NCBI GenBank assembly: GCA_027487515.1
Contig: JAIYDL010000026.1
Location: 62,001 to 126,000 of the forward strand
Source: Pseudomonadota bacterium
GTDB lineage: Bacteria > Bdellovibrionota > Bacteriovoracia > Bacteriovoracales > Bacteriovoracaceae
Direction: 5' to 3'
DNA length: 64,000 nucleotides
Position numbers and translations under genes: made by a program. Each line of letters begins with the position of its first letter. The stretch's first letter is position 1. This document shows positions 22,527 to 27,293 of the stretch, one piece after another. Below the pieces are notes generated by a model. It was not told where the DNA came from and did no database searches. It was given only the letters and a program-made list of their open reading frames with translations.

Positions 22527-22557
22527 TCCGATAGAATCACTCTTCTTTTCTCTTAGT

Positions 22558-22590
22558 GCCTTGGGTAGGTCAGCAAGATTTACCCAAGGC
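22558..22590. repeat. Perfect 10-bp inverted repeat hairpin
   Basis: GCCTTGGGTA and its exact complement flank a 13-base loop, 31 bases after the stop of the DsbA-like gene. No T-run follows on either strand, so it is not a standard terminator. It lies about 70 bases before the coiled-coil gene and could be an operator, RNA stabiliser or weak attenuator. Confidence 0.6.
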
Positions 22591-22657
22591 GCTCCTCTCC
22601 CATCCCCCTGCTATACTAGTTTGTGACGCCACCTCTCTGTGGCCAAGGGGAACGACC

Positions 22658-24607
22658 ATGAGCATGAACGGAATAGACTACTCCAAGCGGCTTGCTTCCG
22701 AGCGTAAGCTCTTTCAGGATGCGGCGAAGACCTTGAAGGAATCGACCGAACGTCGGGTCGACGAAACTGAAAAGCGCACTGAACACGTGATGGCCAAGCA
22801 AAAAGAAAATCACATTAAAGATCGGGCAGAGCTCGAAACTCACTACCAAAAAAATATGGATAAGATGCAGGAGAAAACTCAAGCTGCAGTGGACGGACAA
22901 ACCGGGAAGATGGCCGAAAAAATTGAGGAAGAACGCCGGTTATTCACAGAAGAAGCGACGAAGAAGCGTAAAGACTTCGACCAGCGCTTGAATGACATCC
23001 GCACGAGCTACGGCAAGGCCTTCGACACCGAGAAGCGACGAAATGGAGAAGTCGAAACGAACCAGAAACAAAAGTACGTCGGGAACGTCGAAAATCTTCA
23101 GGAAAATCTCAATGAAAAGCTGGCCGACTACCAGAGTCGAGTTGAAGGCACAGGGAATGAACTGAAGGATCAGTACAGCCGCGAACGGCAACAATTGGTA
23201 CGCGCGCAGGAGGATCGACTTCGCACCGCCTACGAAGACGGAGCCGAGAAGCGTGCCGAGCTCAAAGACCGGATTAATTTCGAACTCAAGCAGGCCAAAG
23301 AAGTAAAAGACGCCGAGCTAGGACAGTTGCGAAAATACAGTCAGGATCGGCTCGGGGCGATGCAGGATCAGTACCAAACGAACAACGATAAAACCTCCCG
23401 TGAATACTCCGAACGCAACAGTGCGATGGTCCAGGCCCAGAAGCTAAATGGGCGAGAGGTGAATCGGGAGCACCAGGAGGACGTGAGTAAGCTCCGGCGT
23501 GGATTCAACGATAGCTTGCGCAAGATCGAACTCGAGCGCCGCCGCCGGGACAATGGCTCCGGCGAATTCGCGGAGTTCCGGGCCAAGCAAGAGGGAATCT
23601 CCGAGGTCGCAAAGCAGCAAACTCGGGTGAAGACCATGAAGGAAAACTTCGCCGAACTCCAGAAAAACTACACCGAAAAGACGGAAGCCGACCACACGAA
23701 GTTCCAGGAAGCTTTTAAGGCCCAGAGTGTGGAGGCCATCGCTCGAGAGGAACGGAAACTCAACGCGGCCAACGCGGACAAGCTTCGGACCTTTTCTTCG
23801 GAGCGCGAGCGCACGGAGAGGCAGATTGGCATGCGCGAGAGCCAGAACAAGCTCGAGCACCAGGAGTTTGATTCGAAGCTAATGATGGAGCAGAAGAATT
23901 CGAACACTCGCCTCACGAAGCTCAAAGAGAGCTTCAACCAGTCCATGAAGTTCGTAGAAGAGAAGCACCTCACGACGCTCGACGAGGTCAATAAGAATTC
24001 GACGAAAGACAAGGCCCAGTTCATGAAGATTCTTCACGAGCGGAAGGCCGAAGACATTGCCGAGATGAAGCGCACCTTCGGAAACCTCATGGATACGATG
24101 GTGCAAGATTACGAGCAGCGGCTCTCGAACTACGAGCGAGAAAACGAAAACCTCAAGCTCACGATGAACCAGAAGCTCCACACGGTCATGGATCAGACGG
24201 AGCGTCAGCTCGAATCGCAGCGGAACATGTTCAACGAGCGCCGGGCCTCGGAGCAGAAGGCGCAGCAGACGCTCAACGATGACAAGGAACTTCAGTTCAA
24301 GCGAAACGTGGCCGACCTCAACAATAGCTACCAGAAAAAGATCGATCGGATGCAGGCCCAAAACGACACGAAATTTAAGTTGATGATCAACGATTATGAG
24401 TCTAAATTAAAAGAACTGAAGGCGCTTCAGAGTAAGCAAATCGTCGAGAAAGACACGACCCATCAGATCGAACTAGACCGAGTCAAGAAAGCGTATGACG
24501 ATGAGAAGACGAGAGTCGTGAACGCTTACGAAAGTCAAATCGAGTCGATCAAGAAAGGGCACGAGGAATCGATGAGGGCCATGGCCGACTACAAGCGCCT
24601 CAGCTAA
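22658..24607 (+). CDS. Long coiled-coil protein without signal peptide
   Basis: 649 residues from the ATG at 22658 (AAGGGGAACGACC upstream; ATG at 22664 is an alternative). There is no signal peptide or membrane segment. After about 10 residues the whole chain is charged helix, rich in E, K, Q, R and N, with few Pro or Gly, predicted to be a continuous coiled coil to the end. It lacks the globular heads of SMC or kinesin-like proteins. A cytoplasmic filament or scaffold is the natural guess, similar in style to bacterial coiled-coil cytoskeletal proteins, but no homologue is recognised. It lies between the DsbA-like and pyruvate-kinase genes, same direction, 41 bases before the latter. Confidence 0.8.
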   Translation: MSMNGIDYSKRLASERKLFQDAAKTLKESTERRVDETEKRTEHVMAKQKENHIKDRAELETHYQKNMDKMQEKTQAAVDGQTGKMAEKIEEERRLFTEEATKKRKDFDQRLNDIRTSYGKAFDTEKRRNGEVETNQKQKYVGNVENLQENLNEKLADYQSRVEGTGNELKDQYSRERQQLVRAQEDRLRTAYEDGAEKRAELKDRINFELKQAKEVKDAELGQLRKYSQDRLGAMQDQYQTNNDKTSREYSERNSAMVQAQKLNGREVNREHQEDVSKLRRGFNDSLRKIELERRRRDNGSGEFAEFRAKQEGISEVAKQQTRVKTMKENFAELQKNYTEKTEADHTKFQEAFKAQSVEAIAREERKLNAANADKLRTFSSERERTERQIGMRESQNKLEHQEFDSKLMMEQKNSNTRLTKLKESFNQSMKFVEEKHLTTLDEVNKNSTKDKAQFMKILHERKAEDIAEMKRTFGNLMDTMVQDYEQRLSNYERENENLKLTMNQKLHTVMDQTERQLESQRNMFNERRASEQKAQQTLNDDKELQFKRNVADLNNSYQKKIDRMQAQNDTKFKLMINDYESKLKELKALQSKQIVEKDTTHQIELDRVKKAYDDEKTRVVNAYESQIESIKKGHEESMRAMADYKRLS

Positions 24608-24648: not shown

Positions 24649-26346
24649 ATGTCTATCCGTCGCGCGAAGATCATTGCGACCATCGGGCCGAGCTCCAATA
24701 CGATCGAGCTTTTGGAAAAAATGATTCTGGCCGGAATGAACGCGGCCCGGATCAACATGTCGCACGGGACCTACGAGGCCCATGAGCAATCCATCAAGAA
24801 CATCCGGCAGGCGTCCCTGAACGTCGGGAAAGAGATTGCGATTCTCCTCGACCTCCAGGGCCCGAAGATCCGAGTTGATAAGGTTCCAGAGCCTCTGGTG
24901 CTGAAGGACGGCGATGTCTGGGTGATTGGCCCCTCCCAACTCAAAGATCAGTACCCGGAGTATGCGAACTGTTTTATACCCACGATTTATAAGAACCTCG
25001 TAAAAGACGCTCACGTCGGTGCGCGGATCCTTTTCGATGACGGTCTCCTCGAAGCCGAAGCCATTGAGAAAGATCGAGAGATCCTGAAGATCAGAGTCAT
25101 CGTCGGGGGAACTCTAAAATCGAACAAAGGGATTAATCTTCCGTACGTAAAAGTTTCCGCGCCGAGTTTCACCGACAAAGACCGCGAGGACTTGATCTTC
25201 GGATTGAAGCAAGGTGTGGACTACGTCGCCCTGAGTTTCGTTCGCACCGCCGAAGATGTCTTGCAAGTGAAGGCGCTCCTTCATCAGATGAAAGTTCGCA
25301 TCCCCATCGTCTCGAAGGTCGAGAAGCCGGAGGCCCTGGACAACATGGAAGCGATCGTCGGCGCTTCCGACGCCATCATGATCGCCCGGGGCGACATGGG
25401 TGTCGAGGTCGGAAACCATCTCGTCCCCAGTATCCAAAAGCGCATGATCAAAGTTTGCAACGAACTCGGGAAGCCGATCATCACAGCGACCCAGATGCTC
25501 GAGTCCATGATCACGAATTCTCGCCCGACCCGCGCCGAGGCTTCGGATGTTGCCAACGCGATCTGGGATGGTACGGACTGCGTGATGCTCTCCGGAGAGA
25601 CGGCATCCGGGAAGTACCCCATCGAGGCGATCCAGATCATGGGACAGATTGTCGAAGAGGCAGAGAAAGAGCCTACGGAGAGACCCCTTCTCCGGCACAT
25701 GGACATTTCGAGTGTCACAGCGTCGGTTCAGGTGGCCGCCTCCATCATCGCAGAGAAACTCCGGGCCCGCTGGATCATCTCGGTCACCGAAGGCGGGAAC
25801 TCTTGCTTGAAGATGACTCGCTTCAGGTCCAAAGCCCAGGTGCTGGGAGTGACGAACTCCATCGACGTGATTCGGAAGATGAGCCTCTATTGGGGTGTCT
25901 CGCCGTACTATTTTAACATCCACTCGGATCCGGATCCAGCGAAGCTGGAAGGGCTCATGCTCGATAAGCTTAAGCAAGAGGGTCATCTCCAGCTTGGGGA
26001 TAAGGTTGTCGTCACCGTGGGTGACGGGAAGTTTTTCCGCCAGGGGACGACGAATTCAATCCGTGTGGAGACGATCAAAGACGTACCCATTGCCATACTG
26101 AACCGGGATCAAGACTCGATCCAGGAGGCGTCATTTGACCGGGGAAAGATCTTACTTGATACATCGATCTGTGCTTCGTGCCAGGCGTGTATCAATGTTT
26201 GTCCATTCGACATTTGGATGACATCTCCCCAGAACAACTTCGAAACTCGGATCAACACGACGCTTGCCTCCAAGTGTACTCTAGACATGCAATGCGTGGA
26301 GGCGTGCCCTACAGGAGCGATCGAGATCATTCCGCTGAATTCATGA
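24649..26346 (+). CDS. pyk: Pyruvate kinase with C-terminal ferredoxin domain
   Basis: 565 residues. Residues 1-476 are a full pyruvate kinase: start KIIATIGPSS, MSHGTYEAH, the catalytic-Lys region SKVEKPEALDN, ARGDMGVE, TATQMLES and a complete C-terminal domain ending NSIRVETI. It makes pyruvate and ATP from phosphoenolpyruvate and ADP. After a linker, residues about 500-565 form a bacterial-type two-cluster ferredoxin: C508, C511, C514, C518-P, then C543, D546, C549, C553-P. Asp546 replaces the second Cys of the second motif. The fusion is one uninterrupted frame with no stop at the junction. Ordinary pyruvate kinases end near residue 475. The gene overlaps queG by ATGA. The role of the ferredoxin part is unknown (redox sensing of pyruvate kinase, or electron supply to a partner). 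Confidence 0.93.
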   Translation: MSIRRAKIIATIGPSSNTIELLEKMILAGMNAARINMSHGTYEAHEQSIKNIRQASLNVGKEIAILLDLQGPKIRVDKVPEPLVLKDGDVWVIGPSQLKDQYPEYANCFIPTIYKNLVKDAHVGARILFDDGLLEAEAIEKDREILKIRVIVGGTLKSNKGINLPYVKVSAPSFTDKDREDLIFGLKQGVDYVALSFVRTAEDVLQVKALLHQMKVRIPIVSKVEKPEALDNMEAIVGASDAIMIARGDMGVEVGNHLVPSIQKRMIKVCNELGKPIITATQMLESMITNSRPTRAEASDVANAIWDGTDCVMLSGETASGKYPIEAIQIMGQIVEEAEKEPTERPLLRHMDISSVTASVQVAASIIAEKLRARWIISVTEGGNSCLKMTRFRSKAQVLGVTNSIDVIRKMSLYWGVSPYYFNIHSDPDPAKLEGLMLDKLKQEGHLQLGDKVVVTVGDGKFFRQGTTNSIRVETIKDVPIAILNRDQDSIQEASFDRGKILLDTSICASCQACINVCPFDIWMTSPQNNFETRINTTLASKCTLDMQCVEACPTGAIEIIPLNS

Positions 26347-27293
26347 ACTCCACTTTTCTTCCCGAAGCCCTGCTTCGAGAGCTCGGCGTCCTCGAGTGGA
26401 GTTACACCGAAGAGGCGGTCCCAAGATCTCTGGAGCACTTCCAGGCCTGGACGGCAGCAGGACTCCATGGTCCGCTCGGGTACCTCGGAGATTACCGACG
26501 GAGCCTCCGCCAAGACATCCGGAAAGTGTTCCCGGAGTTTCGATCCGCCCTCGTTTTTCTCTTTTCCTACCAGGAGACGAAGAAGTACCTCCTCGATCAT
26601 GGCCAGCACGAGGTCGCCGCCTACACCCTCGGCTTCGGCGGCGCGGATTATCATCCGGAACTGCGGGCGCGCCTCAGGGCCATCGTTAAGGTCATTCCTC
26701 ACGACAAGGTCTTCCTCTCCGTTGACGTTCCACCGATTCTCGAGCGGGACCTCGCCTACCGAGCAGGCCTGGGCTGGTTTGGGAAGAATTCCATGCTCAT
26801 TAACCGGCAGCACGGGAGCTATTTTCTCATCGGGAGCATTCTTCTAGATCGAGTACTTCCCTTGAGCACAAAGGAGCTGGACGTAGACCATTGCGGCCAA
26901 TGCACGGCCTGCGCCGATGCCTGCCCCACGAGTGCGATCGACGTGGAGAAGCGAACTCTTATCGCGCAACGATGCATCTCGACCTACACGATCGAGATCA
27001 CGAAGGAAACCACTCCTCCCAGCGGAATCGAGAATTCGCGGGGCGAGATCTTCGGGTGCGACATCTGCCAGGACGTTTGTCCCTGGAACCGGAAACCGCT
27101 GGACAGAGTGACGGCGGAGCTGAAGCTTTATCCTCGATACGCTTTCCTCCGCGAGTGGTTCTACGAATGGCCCCGCGAGAAGCTTCGCGACTACATCCAA
27201 TCCCAGACCAACCGTGGATTTCTAAAACTCATCTCGGGGTCAGTCTTCGAAAGACCCGGGCGCTTGGGTTGGCTGAAGAATCTGCGGCGCTAG
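26343..27293 (+). CDS. queG: Epoxyqueuosine reductase
   Basis: QueG reduces epoxyqueuosine to queuosine in tRNA, using cobalamin and two [4Fe-4S] clusters, in the cytoplasm. The 316 residues start at the ATG that overlaps the pyruvate kinase stop (ATGA); the longer open frame lies inside that gene. Cluster ligands are C184-x2-C187-x2-C190-x3-C194-P and C239-x2-C242-x3-C246-P, plus C211. The conserved stretch LERDLAYRAGLGWFGKN at 133-149 is present and includes the Asp-Leu active-site region. Length is slightly short of the E. coli enzyme. Its partner in coupling is a pyruvate kinase with a ferredoxin tail, an unexpected neighbour. Confidence 0.94.
   Translation: MNSTFLPEALLRELGVLEWSYTEEAVPRSLEHFQAWTAAGLHGPLGYLGDYRRSLRQDIRKVFPEFRSALVFLFSYQETKKYLLDHGQHEVAAYTLGFGGADYHPELRARLRAIVKVIPHDKVFLSVDVPPILERDLAYRAGLGWFGKNSMLINRQHGSYFLIGSILLDRVLPLSTKELDVDHCGQCTACADACPTSAIDVEKRTLIAQRCISTYTIEITKETTPPSGIENSRGEIFGCDICQDVCPWNRKPLDRVTAELKLYPRYAFLREWFYEWPREKLRDYIQSQTNRGFLKLISGSVFERPGRLGWLKNLRR

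Follow-up and report, generated by a model that had tools for sequence, protein, structure and literature searches.

A pyruvate kinase joined in frame to an aspartate-variant ferredoxin domain, with a putative regulatory role, in Bacteriovorax-related bacteria

Pyruvate kinase is one of the main points at which metabolism is controlled, and its known controls are, to our knowledge, metabolites and protein modification. In the window that we analyzed, the whole of a 64,000-nucleotide stretch of DNA from a member of the Bacteriovoracaceae, the reading frame of a pyruvate kinase runs on into a ferredoxin, which raises the question of what an iron-sulfur domain might do on such an enzyme. If regulatory, a built-in Fe-S domain would link redox or iron state directly to glycolytic flux. 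A preliminary description of this DNA had suggested that the tail could either make the kinase respond to redox state or oxygen or bring an electron carrier to a partner, and a regulatory or electron-carrying role is plausible.

The fusion, referred to here as PK-Fd, is a single open frame of 565 amino acids (positions 24649..26346; this and all other features of the window given below lie on the + strand), with no internal stop and with matches to Pfam models and to the pyruvate kinase equivalog model TIGR01064 (pyruv_kin). The latter scores 520.6 bits against a cut-off of 306.4 and aligns from end to end (profile positions 1 to 476 of 476) with residues 4 to 476, while Fer4 models cover residues of about 501 to 558, so that the initial account of a complete kinase continuing in frame into a ferredoxin holds. 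The barrel, with domains A and B, spans residues 3 to 328 (24655..25632; PF00224, 390.1 bits, cut-off 30), and the C domain spans residues 362 to 473 (25732..26067; PF02887 [PK_C], 79.2 bits, cut-off 28). The best 60 of 108 PDB matches are pyruvate kinases, all of which end at query residue 472 to 479. Residues R34, N36, S38, D68, K223, E225, D249, and T281, which we take to be catalytic-site residues, are among the invariant columns of an alignment of 38 sequences (A1). PK-Fd is also the sole PF00224 match in its genome, which is 93.85% complete. The best explanation of these features is that PK-Fd is a putatively active pyruvate kinase, which would convert PEP and ADP to pyruvate and ATP. 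Its C domain contains the pattern T380-x-x-G383-x-S385, presumably the effector phosphate loop (TxxGxS), which is invariant in 30/30 rows of a second alignment (A2); metabolite control is therefore probably retained. Members of the class also have a GDGxFF stretch in this domain that is absent from the four compared rows of other families.

Beyond the kinase, a linker that is variable in alignment A2 (residues 478 to 500; 26080..26148) leads into a two-cluster ferredoxin domain (residues 501 to 560; 26149..26328). Fer4 (PF00037) scores 39.2 bits on the tail (cut-off 21.1), the dicluster models Fer4_7, Fer4_9, and Fer4_10 exceed their cut-offs in the Pfam scan, and all four models match each of the 30 members of alignment A2. 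The domain has two cysteine motifs. Motif I (residues 508 to 518; 26170..26202) reads C508-A-S-C511-Q-A-C514-I-N-V-C518-P and conforms to CxxCxxCxxxCP. Motif II (residues 543 to 553; 26275..26307) reads C543-T-L-D546-M-Q-C549-V-E-A-C553-P and conforms to CxxDxxCxxxCP, with Asp546 (26284-26286) in place of the second cysteine. The preliminary description had thus located both motifs correctly but had taken the second for a full cysteine motif, when it consists of three cysteines and an aspartate.

This substitution is not an isolated event. Our residue-level reading covered 109 loci (duplicate L177 dropped; 10 other-family loci and four loci with another type of pyruvate kinase included) and yielded 79 tails, 78 of them strict and one with an insertion in motif I, corresponding to 79 of the 100 fused genomes of the class. 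The four cysteines of motif I, the three of motif II, Asp546, Asp504, Pro554, and Ala557 were each found in 79/79 tails, and Pro519 in 76/79. The insertion belongs to L136 of genome G078 (CxxCGNxC), and the Pro519 exceptions are the tails of L157 to L159 (g53), which have Ala. With seven motif cysteines and Asp546, the tail departs from the eight-cysteine pattern of a 2[4Fe-4S] ferredoxin and has that of the Asp-variant or 7Fe type, in which one motif is CxxDxxC. Fer4 matches eight frames in this genome, and the other seven lack Asp at that place; a CxxDxxC stretch can also be seen by eye in an indolepyruvate oxidoreductase-like protein outside these eight frames. The corresponding site of Desulfovibrio africanus ferredoxin III is likewise CxxDxxC, and an Asp14 to Cys mutant of that protein has reportedly been studied (as a title has it), which fits such a site. 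In excerpts of the literature, ferredoxins with Asp for Cys are described as holding a [3Fe-4S] cluster in the Sulfolobus Zn-ferredoxin and an oxygen-labile [4Fe-4S] cluster in Pyrococcus and Thermococcus (PMC2946596), and the [3Fe-4S] cluster of D. africanus ferredoxin III is described as reactive and able to take up metal (PMC13111528).

To characterize the distribution of the fusion, we searched 129 genomes of the class, all of one family (f1). The frame runs unbroken from PK_C to ferredoxin in 100 of them. In two genomes the tail is cut by a contig edge (G004 and G082), and in two a frameshift separates the domains (G060 and G097). Eleven have a class-type pyruvate kinase without a tail (G033, G076, G079, G112, G113, G115, G116, G125, G127, G135, and G145), four have a tail-less pyruvate kinase of another type (G109, G114, G117, and G149), and the remaining 10 yielded no match to the enzyme or none to its C terminus (G020, G063, G095, G120, G128, G133, G140, G144, G148, and G150). 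A survey of 368 genomes of the phylum, with matches listed down to about 73 bits, added fusions beyond the class, among the matches listed, in only two genomes of family f29 (G363, 582-aa frame; G360, 603-aa frame), both with the CxxDxxC motif; two further f29 genomes (G361 and G362) had no pyruvate kinase match. The preliminary description had asked how far the architecture is conserved and had named a stop or frameshift between the parts as its disproof; these counts answer the first point, and a shift occurs in G060 and G097 and not in the gene studied here. A short-peptide scan of contigs, which detects close relatives only, returned 76 loci, and outside 25 close relatives (L032 to L056) none matched beyond residue 496. 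The close relatives, all metagenome-assembled genomes, carry the names Bacteriovoracaceae, Bacteriovorax stolpii, Bdellovibrionales, or Proteobacteria in their records. The pyruvate kinase and the ferredoxin type are each known, and we could not find their combination described: an open-access full-text search, whose coverage excludes most subscription journals, returned no account of a pyruvate kinase-ferredoxin fusion, in agreement with the initial remark that no described family of this sort was known to its author.

Distant PK-barrel matches also occur in a separate kind of protein. Genome G032 encodes a 728-aa frame (contig C4, 1035-3221, - strand; L207) with a distant PK barrel and no PK C domain, and a domain scan of this copy found the barrel fused to PUA_2 and ATP-sulfurylase domains. 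Similar matches lie in frames of 666 to 734 aa in G100, G109, G110, and G111.

The two frameshifts fall at runs of 11 A (L108 in G060) and 10 A (L109 in G097), and in both cases an intact ferredoxin follows in a frame other than that of the kinase. These shifts may be sequencing errors or real. Runs of 9 to 10 A occur in the linkers of 14/78 intact fused genes, and outside the linker a run of 9 is attained in 2/79. Among 15 genes whose linker has KKK followed by I or L, the lysines were all encoded by AAA in seven, compared with 5.9 predicted from codon usage. Programmed transcriptional slippage between the two domains thus has no support from this comparison, which puts all-AAA lysines near the codon-usage expectation and covers 7 of the 14 long A-runs.

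Tail dN/dS ranged from 0.00 to 0.07 in eight within-genus pairs, with synonymous sites near saturation in some pairs. We used the tail values only, since several core values were saturated and the core value for L015/L020 probably reflects misalignment. Judged by these ratios, the tail is under purifying selection. Its history was examined with two trees of the PK domain, one of which omitted L127 and 14 closely related members of the genus. The class-type enzymes make up a starred group in which tail-less rows are nested; one of these, G079, sits beside the window's own genome (support 100/97), and the four kinases of the other type fall outside the group in both trees. Such nesting means that the tail was lost repeatedly while the kinase was retained, so that catalysis presumably does not need it. 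A topology in which all fused rows, f29 included, form one clade without tail-less ones was rejected (p-AU = 3.4e-51). In the free tree the f29 kinases pair with the tail-less ones of family f12 (97/90), and grouping f29 with the whole class type was not rejected (p-AU = 0.352), so that a single fusion is possible. The fusion may have arisen once, may have arisen twice with related tails, or may have been transferred.

If the tail acts on the kinase, the kinase might be expected to show where. We compared conserved positions between fused and tail-less enzymes and found a candidate in residues 201 to 213 (25249..25287), presumably a helix in the pyruvate kinase structure, which precede the strand with K223 and E225 and include K208 and His212. 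His212 is kept in 82/82 fused rows of the class (two contig-edge and two frameshifted rows among them; L127 does not cover the site) and in 2/2 fused f29 rows. Among tail-less rows it is found in 3/12 from the class, 1/31 from the phylum, 0/4 of the other type in the class, and 5/49 from other phyla, and two tail-less lineages (G033/G145 and G127) retain it. Of the kinase columns, 146 are conserved in 38 representatives of the fused type, and K208, H212, and D459 are the three among them that were changed in at least five of eight tail-less lineages. When eight fused lineages were drawn at random instead, the mean number of such columns was 0.01, with a maximum of 1 in 500 draws; when they were drawn from the 16 most divergent fused lineages, the mean was 0.22 and the maximum 3. 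At lower thresholds, eight columns were changed in at least three tail-less lineages (divergent control, mean 1.9, maximum 9) and four in at least four (mean 0.6, maximum 4). Neither K208 nor D459 is conserved in the fusions of f29.

Part of this signal may have a simpler source. Conserved columns are changed more often in tail-less than in fused rows in domain A (76/1200 versus 40/3824), domain B (13/288 versus 17/926), and domain C (39/264 versus 16/844), and because tail-less rows are more diverged overall, the column signal may partly reflect relaxed constraint. The same counts give no clear signal specific to the C domain, and we rejected docking at that domain alone. When only the four least diverged tail-less lineages were considered, the signal was weak: one column (K208) was changed in at least three (control mean 0.14, maximum 4) and six in at least two (control mean 2.0, maximum 16). 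Across phylogenetically independent pairs, His212 and the tail agreed in 4.3 of 5 pairs and disagreed in none (sign test, median P = 0.125), although the test is underpowered and five pairs cannot reach significance. That His212 tracks the tail favors a domain that touches the kinase over a free passenger, and the case for docking of the ferredoxin on the barrel via His212 is fair, not strong.

We tentatively favor a reading of PK-Fd as a catalytically active pyruvate kinase on which a putative regulatory Fe-S module is docked; it leads the explanations considered while falling somewhat short of an even chance. It is favored by the invariance of Asp546 and the seven cysteines, by the published cluster chemistry of the Asp variant, by the co-variation at His212, by the invariant TxxGxS pattern, by the failure of the redox partners discussed below to track the tail, and by the precedent of an autoinhibitory extra C-terminal domain in Bacillota pyruvate kinases. 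It is weakened by the CxxDxxC stretch of the indolepyruvate oxidoreductase-like protein, which is an electron-transfer protein, and the existence of tail-less genomes implies that any regulation is dispensable.

A specific form of this docked-module reading, about which we are more hesitant, is that in most of the class PK-Fd, at the exit of glycolysis, directly senses oxygen, iron, or redox state through an interconvertible, Asp-ligated cluster and through docking at His212, in addition to ordinary control by sugar phosphates or nucleotides. In the docked-module reading itself, the ferredoxin would contact the barrel close to the residues that precede the catalytic Lys/Glu strand, at a place that includes His212, as the co-variation suggests. 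When complete, the Asp-variant cluster would be a [4Fe-4S] cluster with Asp or solvent as the ligand, and in the depleted or oxidized form it would be reduced to [3Fe-4S] or be missing altogether; oxygen, the supply of iron, or redox state would drive the switch. Such a change may alter how the ferredoxin domain is seated on the barrel, and altered seating may in turn change how tightly the enzyme binds PEP or its usual C-domain effector. For the direction of control we offer a guess, drawn from analogy: the complete cluster would permit activity, and oxidation or loss of iron would lower it. Lowered activity would hold back PEP during oxidative stress or iron starvation.

The main rival is that the ferredoxin is a tethered electron carrier, donating electrons to, or accepting them from, a redox enzyme bound to PK-Fd, with the activity of the kinase itself uncontrolled. 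By its profile matches the tail has the fold of a two-cluster ferredoxin, as this account predicts, and two candidate partners suggest themselves. The first is a 2-oxoacid:ferredoxin oxidoreductase that consumes the pyruvate made. Excerpts of PMC2946596 describe such an enzyme as reducing the 7Fe ferredoxin of Sulfolobus, which is likewise of the Asp type, and Bacteriovorax sp. HI3 is reported, in the portion of PMC12827227 consulted, to be without a gene for pyruvate oxidation. The genome studied here has a single-chain, 1122-aa indolepyruvate:ferredoxin oxidoreductase-like frame (G000:C24 from about 519127; L202), which is both its only PF01855 (POR_N) match and its sole TPP_enzyme_C match; the NCBIfam scores of this frame are under cut-off on the 790 aa read, and the genome has no NifJ-like match. 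An enzyme of the indolepyruvate type was matched in 97/129 class genomes, some weakly. Its presence does not follow the tail, which led us to reject an indolepyruvate-type or NifJ-like enzyme as an obligate partner: no match was found in fused genomes including G035, G080, G083, G084, G119, and G121, two fused genomes that are 98 and 99% complete (G119 and G122, respectively) have no PF01855 match, and the enzyme is present in tail-less G079, G076, G116, and G033. Moreover, PF00676, the 2-oxoacid dehydrogenase E1 family, occurs in 127/129 class genomes, and pyruvate oxidation is thus perhaps possible without ferredoxin, although the family also covers the 2-oxoglutarate enzyme.

The second candidate lies immediately downstream. 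A QueG-like epoxyqueuosine reductase (26343..27293) begins with an ATG that overlaps the stop codon of PK-Fd (ATGA, 26343-26346). It is over cut-off for QueG_DUF1730 and Fer4_16 and under it for TIGR00276 (184.4 bits, cut-off 200). QueA is present in the genome, which makes queuosine synthesis plausible. This neighbor adjoins the pyruvate kinase in 88/100 class loci (one genome counted twice, as L025/L177; several of the 12 loci without QueG end at a contig edge). It also does so in 9/12 tail-less class-type loci (L110, L112 to L116, L118, L120, and L121), and we rejected QueG as an obligate partner because it adjoins the kinase with or without the tail. A mere carrier, moreover, would not need His212. 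We regard a tethered electron carrier as unlikely, even though it is the strongest of the alternatives.

Alternatively, the ferredoxin could be a structural module that packs on the kinase and stabilizes its tetramer, with static clusters that sense nothing. Co-variation at His212 indicates at most a contact between domains, which this account supplies, and deletion of the extra C-terminal domain of other pyruvate kinases is reported, in excerpts of PMC7925390, to have lowered thermostability, affinity for effector or PEP, or efficiency. A cluster with only a structural task, however, should tolerate Cys at position 546, and the presence of the Asp variant in 79/79 tails points to particular cluster chemistry. 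We consider a purely structural role rather improbable.

Less probable still, the tail could be a scaffold or moonlighting element that recruits the kinase to another protein, with neither control nor electron transfer. The arrangement of the locus lends this some appeal: in addition to QueG, a coiled-coil-like gene with a highly charged product (22556..24607; a listed ORF with an approximate start and no Pfam match) lies upstream of PK-Fd, and a counterpart precedes the kinase in 62/100 class loci (tblastn; some flanks short). Both neighbors also stand beside tail-less kinases, however, and we give recruitment little credence. Charged ORFs of similar size, equated by length and composition rather than homology, lie upstream in 17/31 tail-less loci of the phylum and in both f29 loci, from which we infer that the PK locus itself is probably old. 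An artefact, whether a missed stop, a frameshift as in G060 and G097, or a chimeric assembly, can be dismissed given the unbroken frame in most of the class and in f29 and the purifying selection on the tail.

Occurrence of the fusion in many Bacteriovorax-related bacteria raises the possibility that oxygen, iron, or redox state tunes how they break down sugar; such tuning would bear on the energy metabolism of predatory bacteria. The system has tail-less relatives in the same class as natural controls, and it offers a single invariant Asp open to mutation and a predicted docking residue, His212.

PK-Fd has counterparts among known systems for each of its parts. Compared with the classical pyruvate kinase described by TIGR01064, it is a full-length enzyme above the curated cut-off, with invariant residues at the presumed catalytic site, to which the ferredoxin domain and the GDGxFF stretch of the C domain are added. 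The closest parallel in architecture is the pyruvate kinase of Bacillota and cyanobacteria with an extra C-terminal domain (ECTD, extra-C, or PEPut), in which a further domain likewise follows PK_C and is conserved across a large clade. The ECTD is of the PEP-utilizing-enzyme type and has no Fe-S motifs, whereas the tail of PK-Fd is a ferredoxin; no Pfam family of the ECTD type was found in PK-Fd at an E value of 0.001, and NF004978 matched it only over positions 7 to 481 of 590. Excerpts of PMC11834443 describe the ECTD as autoinhibitory in several Bacillota pyruvate kinases, with exceptions in Staphylococcus aureus and Geobacillus (PMC11834443 and PMC7925390, the latter also in part). For the tail itself, the nearest likeness is to the Sulfolobus Zn-ferredoxin, D. 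africanus ferredoxin III, and the Pyrococcus furiosus ferredoxin, in which one motif has Asp where the second Cys would stand. Among the distant matches of the tail in the PDB are the S. tokodaii structure 1xer (E = 2e-5) and 2z8q (E = 0.006), the latter presumably the P. furiosus ferredoxin. The position of the aspartate differs, in that the Sulfolobus protein has it in motif I (Asp48, according to excerpts of PMC2946596), whereas motif I of PK-Fd is all-Cys and the Asp lies in motif II. Finally, these Asp-variant ferredoxins are free electron carriers, whereas that of PK-Fd is covalently joined to a glycolytic kinase.
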